Positions 3,029-6,260 of a stretch of 50,667 nt of DNA are shown piece by piece; the stretch's first letter is position 1; each line of letters begins with the position of its first letter. The position numbers and the translations under genes were made by a program. The notes under the pieces were generated by a model, which was not told where the DNA came from, ran no database searches, and saw only the letters and a list, made by a program, of their open reading frames with translations. Source of the DNA: Acidocella sp. (GTDB taxonomy: Bacteria > Pseudomonadota > Alphaproteobacteria > Acetobacterales > Acetobacteraceae); contig DAIDJU010000171.1 in NCBI GenBank assembly GCA_027451225.1, positions 1 to 50,667 of the forward strand. The letters run 5' to 3'.

Positions 3029-3883
3029 TCAGGGCCATTTCACTTCCGGCGGCATGGACATGAGGATCGCCTCGGTATTGCCGCCGGTTTTCAGGCCGAA
3101 CATCGTGCCGCGGTCGTAGAGCAGGTTGAACTCCACGTAGCGCCCGCGGCGGATGAGCTGGGCCTCGCGCTCCTCGGGCGTGTAGGGTTCGGCCAAGCGC
3201 CGGCGCGCGATGGGCGGGTAGGCGGCCAGGAACGCCTCGCCGACATCGTGGGTGAAGGCGAAATCCGCCTCGGCGTCCCCGGAGTCGAGGTAATCGTAGA
3301 AAATGCCGCCCGCCCCGCGCGGCTCCTGGCGGTGCGGCAGGTAGAAATACTCGTCGCACCAGGCTTTGAACTTCGGATAATAATCCGGGTCGTGGCGCTC
3401 GCAGGCATTGCGATAGGCGTTGTGGAAAAGCGCCGCGTCCTCCGCCGCCTCCGTTGTGCCGGGTTGCAGCGGCGTCAGGTCGCCCCCGCCGCCGAACCAG
3501 CCTTTGGCTGTCACGATCATGCGCGTGTTCATATGCACGGCCGGCACTTTCGGGCTGCGCGGATGCGCGACCAGCGAGATCCCCGCCGCCCAGAATTTCG
3601 CCCCCGCCTCGGTGCCGGGAATGCGCTTGGCGAAATCCTCCGAGAACTCGCCTTCCACCACCGAGACATTCACCCCGGCCTTCTCGAACACCTGGCCCCG
3701 GATGACGCTCATCACCCCGCCGCCGCCGCCCGGGCGGTCCCACGCGGTGCGGACGAAGCGGCCCGGCACAGGCCCGGCCAGATCCTCGATCGCCTCGAAC
3801 TCGGCGCAGATACGGTCGCGCAGCTGCGCGAACCAAGCGGCGGCGCGGGGTTTCAGCGCCTCATGCGGGGGGATGCTACTCAT
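3029..3883 (-). CDS. hemF: Oxygen-dependent coproporphyrinogen III oxidase
   Basis: 284 residues, the normal size for aerobic HemF. Family motifs are present in order: [22 protein letters not shown], the active-site stretch [38 protein letters not shown], and the C-terminal [19 protein letters not shown]. It converts coproporphyrinogen III to protoporphyrinogen IX with O2 during heme synthesis. Start ATG 3881-3883 is chosen over an upstream TTG in the same frame (3887-3889), with AAGAG a few bases ahead. It is divergent from petA, which places heme supply beside a cytochrome operon. Confidence 0.97.
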
Positions 3884-3994
3884 GACCAACTCTTAAGATG
3901 TTCTTCGCCCGGCTGCCACTCCTGAATATTGCTTGAAATTTTCCCGCTTTCGCCTCATCCCTTGCAACAGGAGTTTCACTCCGGGGAGAAAACA

Positions 3995-4552
3995 ATGGCT
4001 GAAACAGCAGCTACCGAGGCTTCCGGGCCGGGAACCGAATCCCGGCGCGGCTTTCTCACAATTTTCACGGGGGCGGCGGCGACCGTGGCGGCGGGAAGTA
4101 TCGTCTGGCCGCTGCTCGACGCGCTGAACCCCGACGCGCCAAGCGAGGCCCAGGCCCGCATGATCGTCAATGTCGCTGATATTCCCGAGAACACCGCCAA
4201 GACGGTGCAGTGGGACGGCCTGCCGATCTATATCCGCAAGCTCACCGCCCAGCAGATCGCCGCCGCGCAGGCCGTGGTGACGGGCACGCTGCCCGACCCG
4301 GCTGATTTCGCCGCGCGCGTGAACCCCGCCTACCCGGATTACGTGGTGGTGGTGGGGCTGAACACCGGCATCACCTGCGCGCTGGAGGGCAATAGCCCCG
4401 CCGATCCGCGCGGCGATTACGATGGCTGGCTCTGCCCCTGCGATGGCAGCCAGTACGACGTTCTGGGCCGCGTGCGCTCCGGCCCGGCGACAAGGAACCT
4501 CGTCATTCCGCGCTTTACTTTTATCAACGCCGCGCAGATCCGGCTGGGTTGA
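3995..4552 (+). CDS. petA: Rieske-like subunit of a bc1-type complex, cluster ligands missing
   Basis: A 185-residue protein with the whole scaffold of the ubiquinol-cytochrome c reductase Rieske subunit: Tat motif SRRGFL (Arg 17-18), membrane anchor to about residue 41 followed by ALNPDA, then the beta-rich domain ending GRVRSGPATRNLVIPRFTF. The cluster-binding boxes are not normal. The usual CTHLGC reads NTGITC (Asn123, Gly125, Cys128) and the usual CPCHGS reads CPCDGS (Cys147, Cys149, Asp150). Only one of the four [2Fe-2S] ligands (Cys147) and the two disulfide cysteines remain. The reading frame is intact from ATG 3995 (GGGGAGA upstream), so this is not a frameshift. It leads a three-gene operon; petB begins 11 bases after its stop. 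Normal cluster function is not expected. Confidence 0.85.
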   Translation: MAETAATEASGPGTESRRGFLTIFTGAAATVAAGSIVWPLLDALNPDAPSEAQARMIVNVADIPENTAKTVQWDGLPIYIRKLTAQQIAAAQAVVTGTLPDPADFAARVNPAYPDYVVVVGLNTGITCALEGNSPADPRGDYDGWLCPCDGSQYDVLGRVRSGPATRNLVIPRFTFINAAQIRLG

Positions 4553-4563
4553 GGGGGGACGCC

Positions 4564-5559
4564 ATGATCAAGGAGCTGAAACCGCTCTCCAGCCTCGCCG
4601 CATTGCTCGGGCTGCTCACGGCCTCGGGGCTGGTGCTGGCGGTGTATTACAACCCGTGGCACGCTTTCGCCTCGCTGGGGTTCATTGAGCGCGAGGTGAA
4701 TGAAGGCTGGCTGGTGCAGGCCTATCACGCCACCGGCACGACTCTGCTGTTCGGGCTGGCTTATCTGTTTCTCTTCCGTGCCATGCTCGCACGCGGCTAC
4801 CGGGCGCCGGACGATTTGGCCTGGGCGCTGGGCGTAAAGCTGCTGGCCGTGCTGCTGCTGGCGGGCTGGCTGGGCTTTGTGCTCACCGGCGGGGCGGCGG
4901 CGTATTGGGCGCTGGTCCGGGCCGCCAATGGGGCGCTGGCACTCTCGGGCGCTGCGGGGGCTATTGGCATGTGGTTCTTTGGCGGCCCGGCGGGCGAGGG
5001 CACGCTGGCGCGGCTCGCGCTGTTCCATGCCGTGCTGGGCGTGGCGGCGCTGGCGGTGCTGGCGGCGGCGTATCGCAGGCTGAAGCCGAAGATGAGTCCG
5101 GGCGTCTGCCTGGACCATCTGGCCCGCTTCGCCGTGCTGGCGCTCATTTTCTCGGTGCTGGCCTTCTTCTTTCCCCATCTCGGCCAACCGGCGGTGAACG
5201 CTTTGCCGGGCGATCCGCTCACCTTGCCGCTCGGTACGGCGCTGCCCTGGTATTTGCTACCCCTGGCGGGCATCGCCGATGCGCTGCCCGGCGCGTGGGG
5301 CGGGATCATCGGCGTGGTGGGCGCGGTGGCGGTGCTGGCGGCTTTGCCCTGGCTGGACGGCTCCGGCCCCGAGGCTGTCCGGAGCCGGTGGTACGGCGTC
5401 CTCACCTGGGTTTGGGGGCTGGATGTCATCGCCCTGGGCATTACCGCTACGGCGCGGGACTGCCCTCAGGCCAGCCTGCTGCTGGCGCTGTTCGCCCTCT
5501 GGTATTTCTTCCATTTTCTGGTGCTGGTTCCGCTCGTCACCGCCATGGAGGCCAAATGA
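4564..5559 (+). CDS. petB: Cytochrome b-like subunit of a bc1-type complex, lacking heme bH ligands
   Basis: 331 residues, shorter than the ~400-430 usual for alphaproteobacterial cytochrome b; the N-terminal amphipathic region is missing. It aligns by eye through helices A-H: GLVLAVYYNPWHAF, EVNEGWLVQAYHATG, APDDLAWALG, LGQPAVNALPGDPLTLP, AALPWLDGS. The first histidine of each heme pair is kept (His55, His155: heme bL). The partners 14 residues on are Phe69 and Ala169, so heme bH has no ligands. The Qo motif PEWY reads LPWY, and PWGQ of helix C reads TGGA. Start ATG 4564 follows AGGGGGG. It overlaps petC. Inner-membrane location is secure; quinol oxidation by a Q cycle is unlikely. Confidence 0.85.
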   Translation: MIKELKPLSSLAALLGLLTASGLVLAVYYNPWHAFASLGFIEREVNEGWLVQAYHATGTTLLFGLAYLFLFRAMLARGYRAPDDLAWALGVKLLAVLLLAGWLGFVLTGGAAAYWALVRAANGALALSGAAGAIGMWFFGGPAGEGTLARLALFHAVLGVAALAVLAAAYRRLKPKMSPGVCLDHLARFAVLALIFSVLAFFFPHLGQPAVNALPGDPLTLPLGTALPWYLLPLAGIADALPGAWGGIIGVVGAVAVLAALPWLDGSGPEAVRSRWYGVLTWVWGLDVIALGITATARDCPQASLLLALFALWYFFHFLVLVPLVTAMEAK

Positions 5560-6260
5560 TGCGCCGGTTTTTTGCCCCGCTTTTGGCTCTGGGCCTTGTC
5601 CTCGCGGGCAACGCCCAGGCTCAGGACACGCTCTCCCCGCTGCATTTCCAGAGCGACGGGCCGCTTGGCGGTATCGACAAGGCCGCCGCACAGCGCGGGT
5701 TTCTGGTGTACCAGACCGTCTGCGCCGCCTGCCATGCCGCCAGCGCCCTGCATTACCGCGACCTCGAAGCCCTGGGCCTGACGTCGGATCAGGCGGCGGG
5801 GGTGGCCGCCGGGGTGAAGCTGGCCGATGGCTCGGCTGCCACGCTGGACTCTCCGTTCAAGGCGCCCGCCATGCCCGCCTCGGCCTTTGGCGGGGCGGTG
5901 CCGCCCGATCTTTCCTCCATCGCGGCGCAGCGCCCAGGTGGTGCGCAATATATTTACGCATTGCTCACCGGCTACACCACGGCCCCCGATGGTGTGACGA
6001 TGTTGCCTGGCCATTTCTACAACAAGGCGTTTCCGGGCGGGCAGGTCGCCATGCCGCCGGTGCTGCGCGACAACGCCGTGACCTATGCCGACGGCACCCC
6101 TGCCACCCAGAGCCAGGAGGCGGCTGACGTGGCAGAGTTCCTCACCTGGGCGGCGGACCCGAATTTGGGCACGCGGCACCAGATCGGTCTGCGGGCGGTG
6201 ATCTTCTTCACCCTGCTCAGCATTGTCGCCATCGCCGCGCGGCGGGGAGGCGGAGGCTGA
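5556..6260 (+). CDS. petC: Cytochrome c1 subunit of the bc1-type complex
   Basis: 234 residues: signal peptide (to about AQAQ, residue 23), a cytochrome c1 domain and a C-terminal membrane anchor (about residues 210-228). The heme c motif CAACH is at 56-60, followed by the c1-typical HYRDL. GGAQYIYALLTGYT and the axial-ligand box GGQVAMPPVL (Met166) are intact. The start overlaps the petB stop as ATGA at 5556; a second ATG at 5559 lies at a better distance from GGAGG (5547-5551), so the start may be one codon later. In contrast to its two partners, no cofactor ligand is missing. Confidence 0.93.
   Translation: MMRRFFAPLLALGLVLAGNAQAQDTLSPLHFQSDGPLGGIDKAAAQRGFLVYQTVCAACHAASALHYRDLEALGLTSDQAAGVAAGVKLADGSAATLDSPFKAPAMPASAFGGAVPPDLSSIAAQRPGGAQYIYALLTGYTTAPDGVTMLPGHFYNKAFPGGQVAMPPVLRDNAVTYADGTPATQSQEAADVAEFLTWAADPNLGTRHQIGLRAVIFFTLLSIVAIAARRGGGG

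Follow-up and report, generated by a model that had tools for sequence, protein, structure and literature searches.

A petABC operon in Acidocella predicted to encode a bc1-like complex without a Q cycle

Why would a bacterium keep an intact operon for cytochrome bc1 once the sites needed for catalysis are gone? This question is raised by petABC in a 50,667-nucleotide stretch of DNA from Acidocella sp. (the window), contig C171 in a draft genome of 2.6 Mb and 97% completeness. We lean slightly towards reading its product as a vertically inherited bc1 complex that would have been catalytically retired and kept as a heme-c1-bearing membrane assembly, and not as a new linear or bifurcating enzyme. 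The features retained are c1 itself, the bL histidines of cytochrome b, and the disulfide cysteines and membrane anchor of the Rieske protein. As predicted from its subunit sequences, the complex cannot run a Q cycle, because the cluster site, the bH ligand pair and the Qi-site Asp are all missing.

Cofactor sites lost and retained in Acidocella

The three genes are intact and stand in order on the same (+) strand between positions 3995 and 6260, and the petB stop and petC start overlap by 4 bases. This confirmed the tightly spaced operon given in a preliminary description of the sequence, as well as the CAACH motif and axial Met166 that it had reported for cytochrome c1 (Table 1). Pfam recognized the Rieske N-terminal anchor (2.3e-10), cytochrome b (5.4e-21) and cytochrome c1 (3.6e-59), and sequence searches of the PDB likewise assigned the products to a Rieske protein, cytochrome b and cytochrome c1. 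The petA product retains a Tat-type N-terminus and the membrane anchor; the Pfam Rieske domain itself fell under the cut-off (E 0.016). Box 1 reads NTGITC (canonical CTHLGC) and box 2 CPCDGS (canonical CPCHGS), with three of the four cluster ligands gone and the first Cys of box 2 still Cys. The earlier statement that the partners of c1 lack their cofactor sites is therefore right for these three ligands, the bH pair and the PEWY Glu, and goes too far for the one cluster Cys that remains. NCBIfam labels this ligand-less protein a ubiquinol-cytochrome c reductase iron-sulfur subunit, above cut-off, so that the loss of the ligands is hidden by automatic annotation.

To place the operon in its genus, 38 Acidocella genomes, the window's included, were searched with the window Rieske protein. 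An orthologue was found in 35/38, the three without a match (G005, G029 and G030) being 77–85% complete. From these genomes 35 Rieske, 35 cytochrome b and 34 c1 sequences were aligned with 19 canonical outgroups; contig ends cut one Rieske gene (L077) and some c1 genes, and the 35th c1 was lost that way. Rieske residues are given in what we take to be bovine numbering (C139, H141, C144, C158, C160, H161, S163 and Y165).

The full four-ligand Rieske set was found in 0/35 Acidocella sequences vs 19/19 outgroups. Ligand C139 is Asn and H161 is Asp in all 35, H141 is Gly (29) or Ala (6), and C158 is Cys (23) or Ser (12). The disulfide cysteines C144 and C160 are each retained 35/35, as are S163 and Y165, residues with a cluster-tuning role in functional Rieske proteins. 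In cytochrome b the bL His is present 35/35 on helix B and 34/35 on helix D (Leu in L063), which predicts an intact bL pair in 34/35. A bH His stands alone on helix B in 9 sequences and on helix D in 10, and both occur together in none; the helix-B bH position holds 12 residue kinds, His among them. The PEWY Glu, present in 19/19 outgroups, is Pro in 35/35, and the Qi-site Asp, also 19/19 in outgroups, was found by alignment in 0/35. The c1 CxxCH and Met were retained in 34/34.

A second working copy was ruled out, since 34/37 Acidocella genomes gave exactly one cytochrome b match and three gave none (G037 not included); a Rieske protein of this type was matched at most once in any Acidocella genome. 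In the window genome c1, cytochrome b and this type of Rieske protein each gave a single match. Its cytochrome b is shorter than those of its relatives, with an N-terminal stretch and a short loop missing, and at four Acidocella loci (L032, L033, L034 and L035) the petB product begins with a Cys-bearing stretch (e.g. RLPCLGxxC) that is not in the aligned canonical cytochromes b.

Compared with canonical alphaproteobacterial bc1, the Acidocella loci share the gene order, the hemF-like neighbor, subunit homology, the bL His pair and the heme c1 ligands, whereas the 35 sequences are without the Rieske ligand set, the PEWY Glu, the bH pair and the Qi Asp. Of what marks a Complex III, the c1 CxxCH and Met are present with common descent and locus; the cluster, two b hemes and the Glu and Asp are predicted not to be. 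Other Rieske/cytochrome b loci of the same family, of a long form that we take to belong to acetous bacteria, carry CTHLGC in 7/7 (the box 2 pattern in 4/7) and, unlike Acidocella, PEWY in 9/9 non-Acidiphilium cytochromes b. The acetous-type bc1 is regarded as being of doubtful use by Degli Esposti et al. (2023; PMC10715153; this and the other papers are cited from the parts of their text available).

The ligand-less bc1 of Acidocella has been known since 2023, and the preliminary claim of a previously undescribed complex was wrong because the same losses were described then in Acidocella and Acidiphilium (PMC10715153). In that account both genera have a "deranged" bc1: the Rieske protein is short of three or four ligands and keeps its disulfide cysteines, the bH ligands are gone, and c1 is intact; a cluster-tuning role of Tyr165 is also mentioned. 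Our locus is alike in genus and operon, with three ligands lost in the window and the disulfide kept, a likeness that holds for Acidocella 35/35, and lost bH ligands beside an intact c1 were found throughout the Acidocella alignments. The main text of that paper, in the part available, makes no mention of PEWY, purifying selection or positive selection, and the open-licence literature gave no further title on Acidocella or Acidiphilium bc1 or Rieske derangement. Judged against that available text, the order of losses, the Glu-to-Pro change common to 35/35 Acidocella and 11/11 Acidiphilium, the residue retention in c1 beside a strongly relaxed cytochrome b, the separate losses of cluster ligands in the two genera with the disulfide cysteines retained, the anchor stubs and the gene content of G330 (all below) are apparently new.

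Table 1. Features of the petABC locus in the window
Feature	Position	Strand	Basis or remark
petA, Rieske protein without cluster site, 185 aa	3995..4552	+	open reading frame, Pfam, alignment
petA ligand positions, now Asn, Gly and Asp	4361-4363, 4367-4369, 4442-4444		
petA remaining ligand Cys	4433-4435		
petA disulfide Cys, retained	4376-4378 and 4439-4441	+	alignment
petB, cytochrome b, 331 aa	4564..5559	+	open reading frame, Pfam, alignment
petB bL His pair (His55, His155)	4726-4728 and 5026-5028	+	
petB bH positions, now Phe and Ala	4768-4770 and 5068-5070		each 14 residues after bL His
petB PEWY Glu, now Pro	5245-5247	+	motif reads LPWY
petC, cytochrome c1, 234 aa	5556..6260	+	CAACH 5721-5735, axial Met166 6051-6053
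hemF-like gene, divergent neighbor of petABC	3029..3889	-	homology measured

Selection and the order of losses

The divergent neighbor of petABC, for which we assume the name hemF (the homology itself was measured), lies beside 33/35 Acidocella petABC loci (the remaining two lie at the ends of contigs) and beside 18/19 outgroup loci. It marks the ancestral place of petABC in Acidocella, Acidiphilium and most canonical relatives. The pattern is not due to chance, because the Rieske orthologue recurs in 35/38 genomes, at 33 of these 35 loci beside this gene. No internal stop or broken frame was found in the operons of 35 Acidocella species (3 genes cut by contig ends), at synonymous distances of up to 1.7. 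Between the window and its nearest relative about 16 stops would be expected without selection, and 0 were found.

The ratio of nonsynonymous to synonymous substitution rates (dN/dS) was calculated pairwise with our own Nei-Gojobori script for 15 pairs of six species, with ctaC and ctaD as controls. Values were 0.15–0.46 for c1, 0.15–0.40 for Rieske and 0.35–0.83 for cytochrome b, and 0.09–0.34 for ctaC and 0.05–0.17 for ctaD. In a wider set the medians were 0.32 (Rieske, 389/595 pairs usable), 0.49 (cytochrome b, 414/595) and 0.29 (c1, 280/561), with no usable pair reaching 1; pairs with dS outside 0.05–1.2 or saturated were dropped (206/595, 181/595 and 281/561, respectively). Residues invariant in the outgroups were held in at least 90% of Acidocella at 26/30 positions in c1, 22/36 in Rieske and 35/121 in cytochrome b. 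Cytochrome b is strongly relaxed, and c1 is distinguished by keeping ancestral residues, not by dN/dS.

Since petABC is genus-wide and under purifying selection, it is not the accident of one strain, and one-strain decay or an assembly error was ruled out. The preliminary description had named restriction to one strain, with other strains intact or frameshifted, as the finding that would favor simple decay; the pattern was instead common to 35/38 genomes with intact frames. Its proposal of a complex that is maintained without a Q cycle, with ligands left for a single b heme and for heme c1, is likewise borne out, as far as sequences predict it, by the spread of the pattern across Acidocella and by purifying selection.

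The order of the losses was read from a tree of the hemF-like neighbor with 59 rows, 53 of them with cytochrome b data, counting changes without telling gains from losses. A single change was counted at the PEWY Glu, as against at least 6 at the helix-B bH His and at least 4 at the helix-D one. Two apparent modes of loss are present: C139, H161 and the PEWY Glu have each become fixed for a single replacement, and the helix-B bH position looks drift-like. Because Glu-to-Pro is a single change on the tree vs several at the bH positions, we infer that it probably came first and that the bH site decayed piecemeal later.

Rieske stubs and gene loss in Acidiphilium

The GTDB genus g136 was identified as Acidiphilium, pieces of two G305 contigs matching plasmids of Acidiphilium multivorum AIU301 at 100%. 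On the hemF tree it is sister to Acidocella (support 99/94). Genes petB and petC were found in 11/13 Acidiphilium genomes, where cytochrome b keeps the bL pair (11/11), has lost both bH His (11/11) and carries Pro for the PEWY Glu (11/11), and c1 keeps CxxCH (11/11).

Rieske states in these 11 genomes were read only at the position upstream of petB. All four ligands are present in G270 alone, and four genomes (G323, G324, G326 and G329) encode a full-length, ligand-less protein with both disulfide cysteines. In the other 6/11 (G172, G228, G305, G325, G327 and G328; loci L165, L166, L167, L168, L169 and L171) what stands just upstream of petB is an N-terminal anchor stub of 47–73 residues. Its stop overlaps the in-frame petB ATG or lies 1–2 bases before it (6/6), and between the stop and the start of the cytochrome b profile match lie only 47–83 bases, which leaves no room for a Rieske head domain. 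An anchor profile built without Acidiphilium recovered 4/6 stubs at E ≤5.3e-4; G228 scored E 0.31 and G305 gave no match, and these two were included on account of their position and frame, G305 also because it resembles the G327 stub. Two stub pairs gave dN/dS of 0.13 and 0.42, on few sites. By position, then, the anchor is retained in 11/11 genomes with petBC, and the head is gone in 6.

These states differ from the published account in two respects. Degli Esposti et al. (2023; PMC10715153) described Acidiphilium as without a Rieske gene, whereas the 11 petBC genomes here comprise one full-ligand, four ligand-less and six stub states. The same paper had bH-ligand mutations always accompanying Rieske mutations, whereas in G270 both bH ligands are lost with four Rieske ligands kept. 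In G270 (L126/L164) the cluster-tuning Ser and Tyr are also replaced, by Ala and Phe, and PEWY reads PPWY; from these sequences it looks like an intermediate stage.

In the cytochrome b tree, ligand-less Acidocella and ligand-less Acidiphilium stand apart; support at one deep split within Acidiphilium is only 88/76. The cluster ligands were lost separately in both genera, and the disulfide cysteines were retained each time. Stub-bearing G325 is sister to ligand-less G323 (100/100), and the head was therefore deleted at least 2 times, or 3 if the placement of G270 on the hemF tree is correct. Neither petB nor petC was matched in the Acidiphilium genomes G330 (99% complete) and G322 (83%).

Respiratory setting and possible roles of the retained complex

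Among 23 Acidocella genomes at least 90% complete, aa3-type COX1 is a full-length frame of about 540 aa in 19, runs from position 28 on in G026, and is in pieces only in G014, G015 and G035 (rows read by eye). The CuA motif was present in six COX operons inspected. A bd oxidase or a bo3-type COX1 of about 690 aa was found in 24/24 Acidocella genomes at least 90% complete, in G037 via bd alone, which gives all judged genomes a bc1-free route from ubiquinol to oxygen. A need of petABC for quinol oxidation was ruled out for these 24. Two genomes differ and are too incomplete to judge: G008 (80%) has aa3-type COX1 only and no bd match, and G019 (77%) a partial COX1 and no bd. In the window genome a 536-aa COX1 passes the CtaD cut-off, and a 691-aa COX1 with a CyoA-like partner is best matched by CyoB, with scores below curated cut-offs. 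The lineage had been suggested to rely on quinol oxidases; bd and bo3-type enzymes are indeed there, and the suggestion is incomplete because an aa3-type cytochrome c oxidase is kept too. The survey of relatives proposed alongside it gave that retained oxidase together with the genus-wide ligand losses. Ubiquinol oxidation by the petABC complex is most likely absent, and left to the bo3-type and bd oxidases.

If the complex was retired and kept, as we slightly favor, the Rieske anchor, cytochrome b and c1 would still assemble in the membrane, heme bL may serve as a folding pin within cytochrome b, and the assembly would hold heme c1 at the periplasmic face. Its role would most likely be that of a tethered c-type heme, or of a docking or assembly platform for another redox partner. 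More tentatively, and at somewhat less than an even chance, selection itself may have made bc1 into a cluster-free, heme-c1-bearing assembly, with the Rieske head locked in the apo state with its disulfide and then deleted at least twice in Acidiphilium, leaving the anchor. Head and anchor of the Rieske protein would then be separable parts, and heme c1 would act as a docking site or relay electrons with no Rieske cluster involved.

Several results weigh against a retained assembly. G330 gave no petB or petC match and keeps NuoD-type gene(s) and three COX1 genes of the aa3 type, which makes the assembly dispensable in that genome. Judged by pattern, the c1 Met was found in 7 and not found in 3/10 complete Acidiphilium c1 genes (G228, G323 and G325), the G329 gene being cut at the end of its locus. 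By dN/dS c1 is lower than Rieske in 7/15 pairs, equal in 1 and higher in 7, and it exceeds ctaC in 11/15; cytochrome b reaches 0.83. That c1 is no more constrained than Rieske by this measure makes a retained assembly slightly less likely. Glu-to-Pro alone proves nothing, since the PEWY Glu is not strictly essential and the R. capsulatus E295V mutant still grows photosynthetically (PMC10583091). AlphaFold2 was unusable, the models from five-sequence alignments having a mean pLDDT (predicted local distance difference test) of 40.7 for Rieske and 42.5 for cytochrome b, and these were discarded.

The main rival, though on the whole unlikely, is slow decay, in which no function is left and the genes go at unequal speeds, c1 and the membrane anchor last. 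The graded series in Acidiphilium is what decay would leave, from full ligands in G270 through four ligand-less and six stub states and three c1 genes without the Met pattern to no petBC in G330 and G322, and the strongly relaxed cytochrome b, shortened in the window, fits too. However, frames are unbroken in 35 Acidocella species at synonymous distances of up to 1.7, the dN/dS of c1 overlaps the ctaC range, the replacements at C139, H161 and the PEWY Glu are fixed vs the 12 residue kinds at the helix-B bH position, and the disulfide cysteines survived both separate ligand losses. A scaffold was the best supported of the roles in the preliminary description, tempered by the graded decay seen in Acidiphilium.

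A narrower structural role, stabilizing Complex I, was proposed together with an iron-oxidation bypass by Degli Esposti et al. (2023; PMC10715153); we consider it improbable in general, though it may hold in some species. A strong NuoD-type match (E <1e-100) was found in 32/38 Acidocella genomes and pieces in 2 (G027 and G035), which agrees with the proposal, and only weak matches in G001, G019, G033 and G036. G330 and G322, however, retain a full-length NuoD-type gene without petB or petC, and G322 likewise keeps aa3-type COX1. By gene content, G330 argues against a general need of petBC by either Complex I or the aa3 oxidase. G036 (96% complete) has petABC and a NuoD match of only 1e-21 on a frame of about 594 aa; it may have no Complex I, or a missing contig could explain this. 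Two NuoD-type genes, each of about 407 aa, were found in the window genome (G000:C31 and G000:C156), which may reflect a second Complex I or draft-genome contamination. Less probable still is linear transfer from quinol through heme bL to heme c1 without bifurcation, one of the roles first suggested for the locus. It would account for the bL and c1 ligands being those retained, and for the retention of a cytochrome c oxidase, an enzyme that depends on reduced cytochrome c. The distance from bL to c1 in known structures is too large for direct transfer, and quinol oxidases are present in the 24/24 more complete Acidocella genomes. In working enzymes the cluster-bearing Rieske head shuttles between the quinol site and c1 (PMC4583038), but the Acidocella head cannot hold the cluster that normally joins cytochrome b to heme c1. 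Linear transfer was also considered and set aside in PMC10715153.

The locus is a natural dissection of a textbook enzyme and shows which parts of Complex III stay selected when its catalytic sites have gone. In close acidophiles, the passage from ligand-bearing through ligand-less and bare-anchor forms to no petBC makes the role of a dead bc1 testable, and bears on why cytochrome c oxidase persists where a Q cycle no longer reduces cytochrome c. Two further cytochromes c are encoded in the window genome, one a di-heme protein with a hydrophobic N-terminus and the other small.

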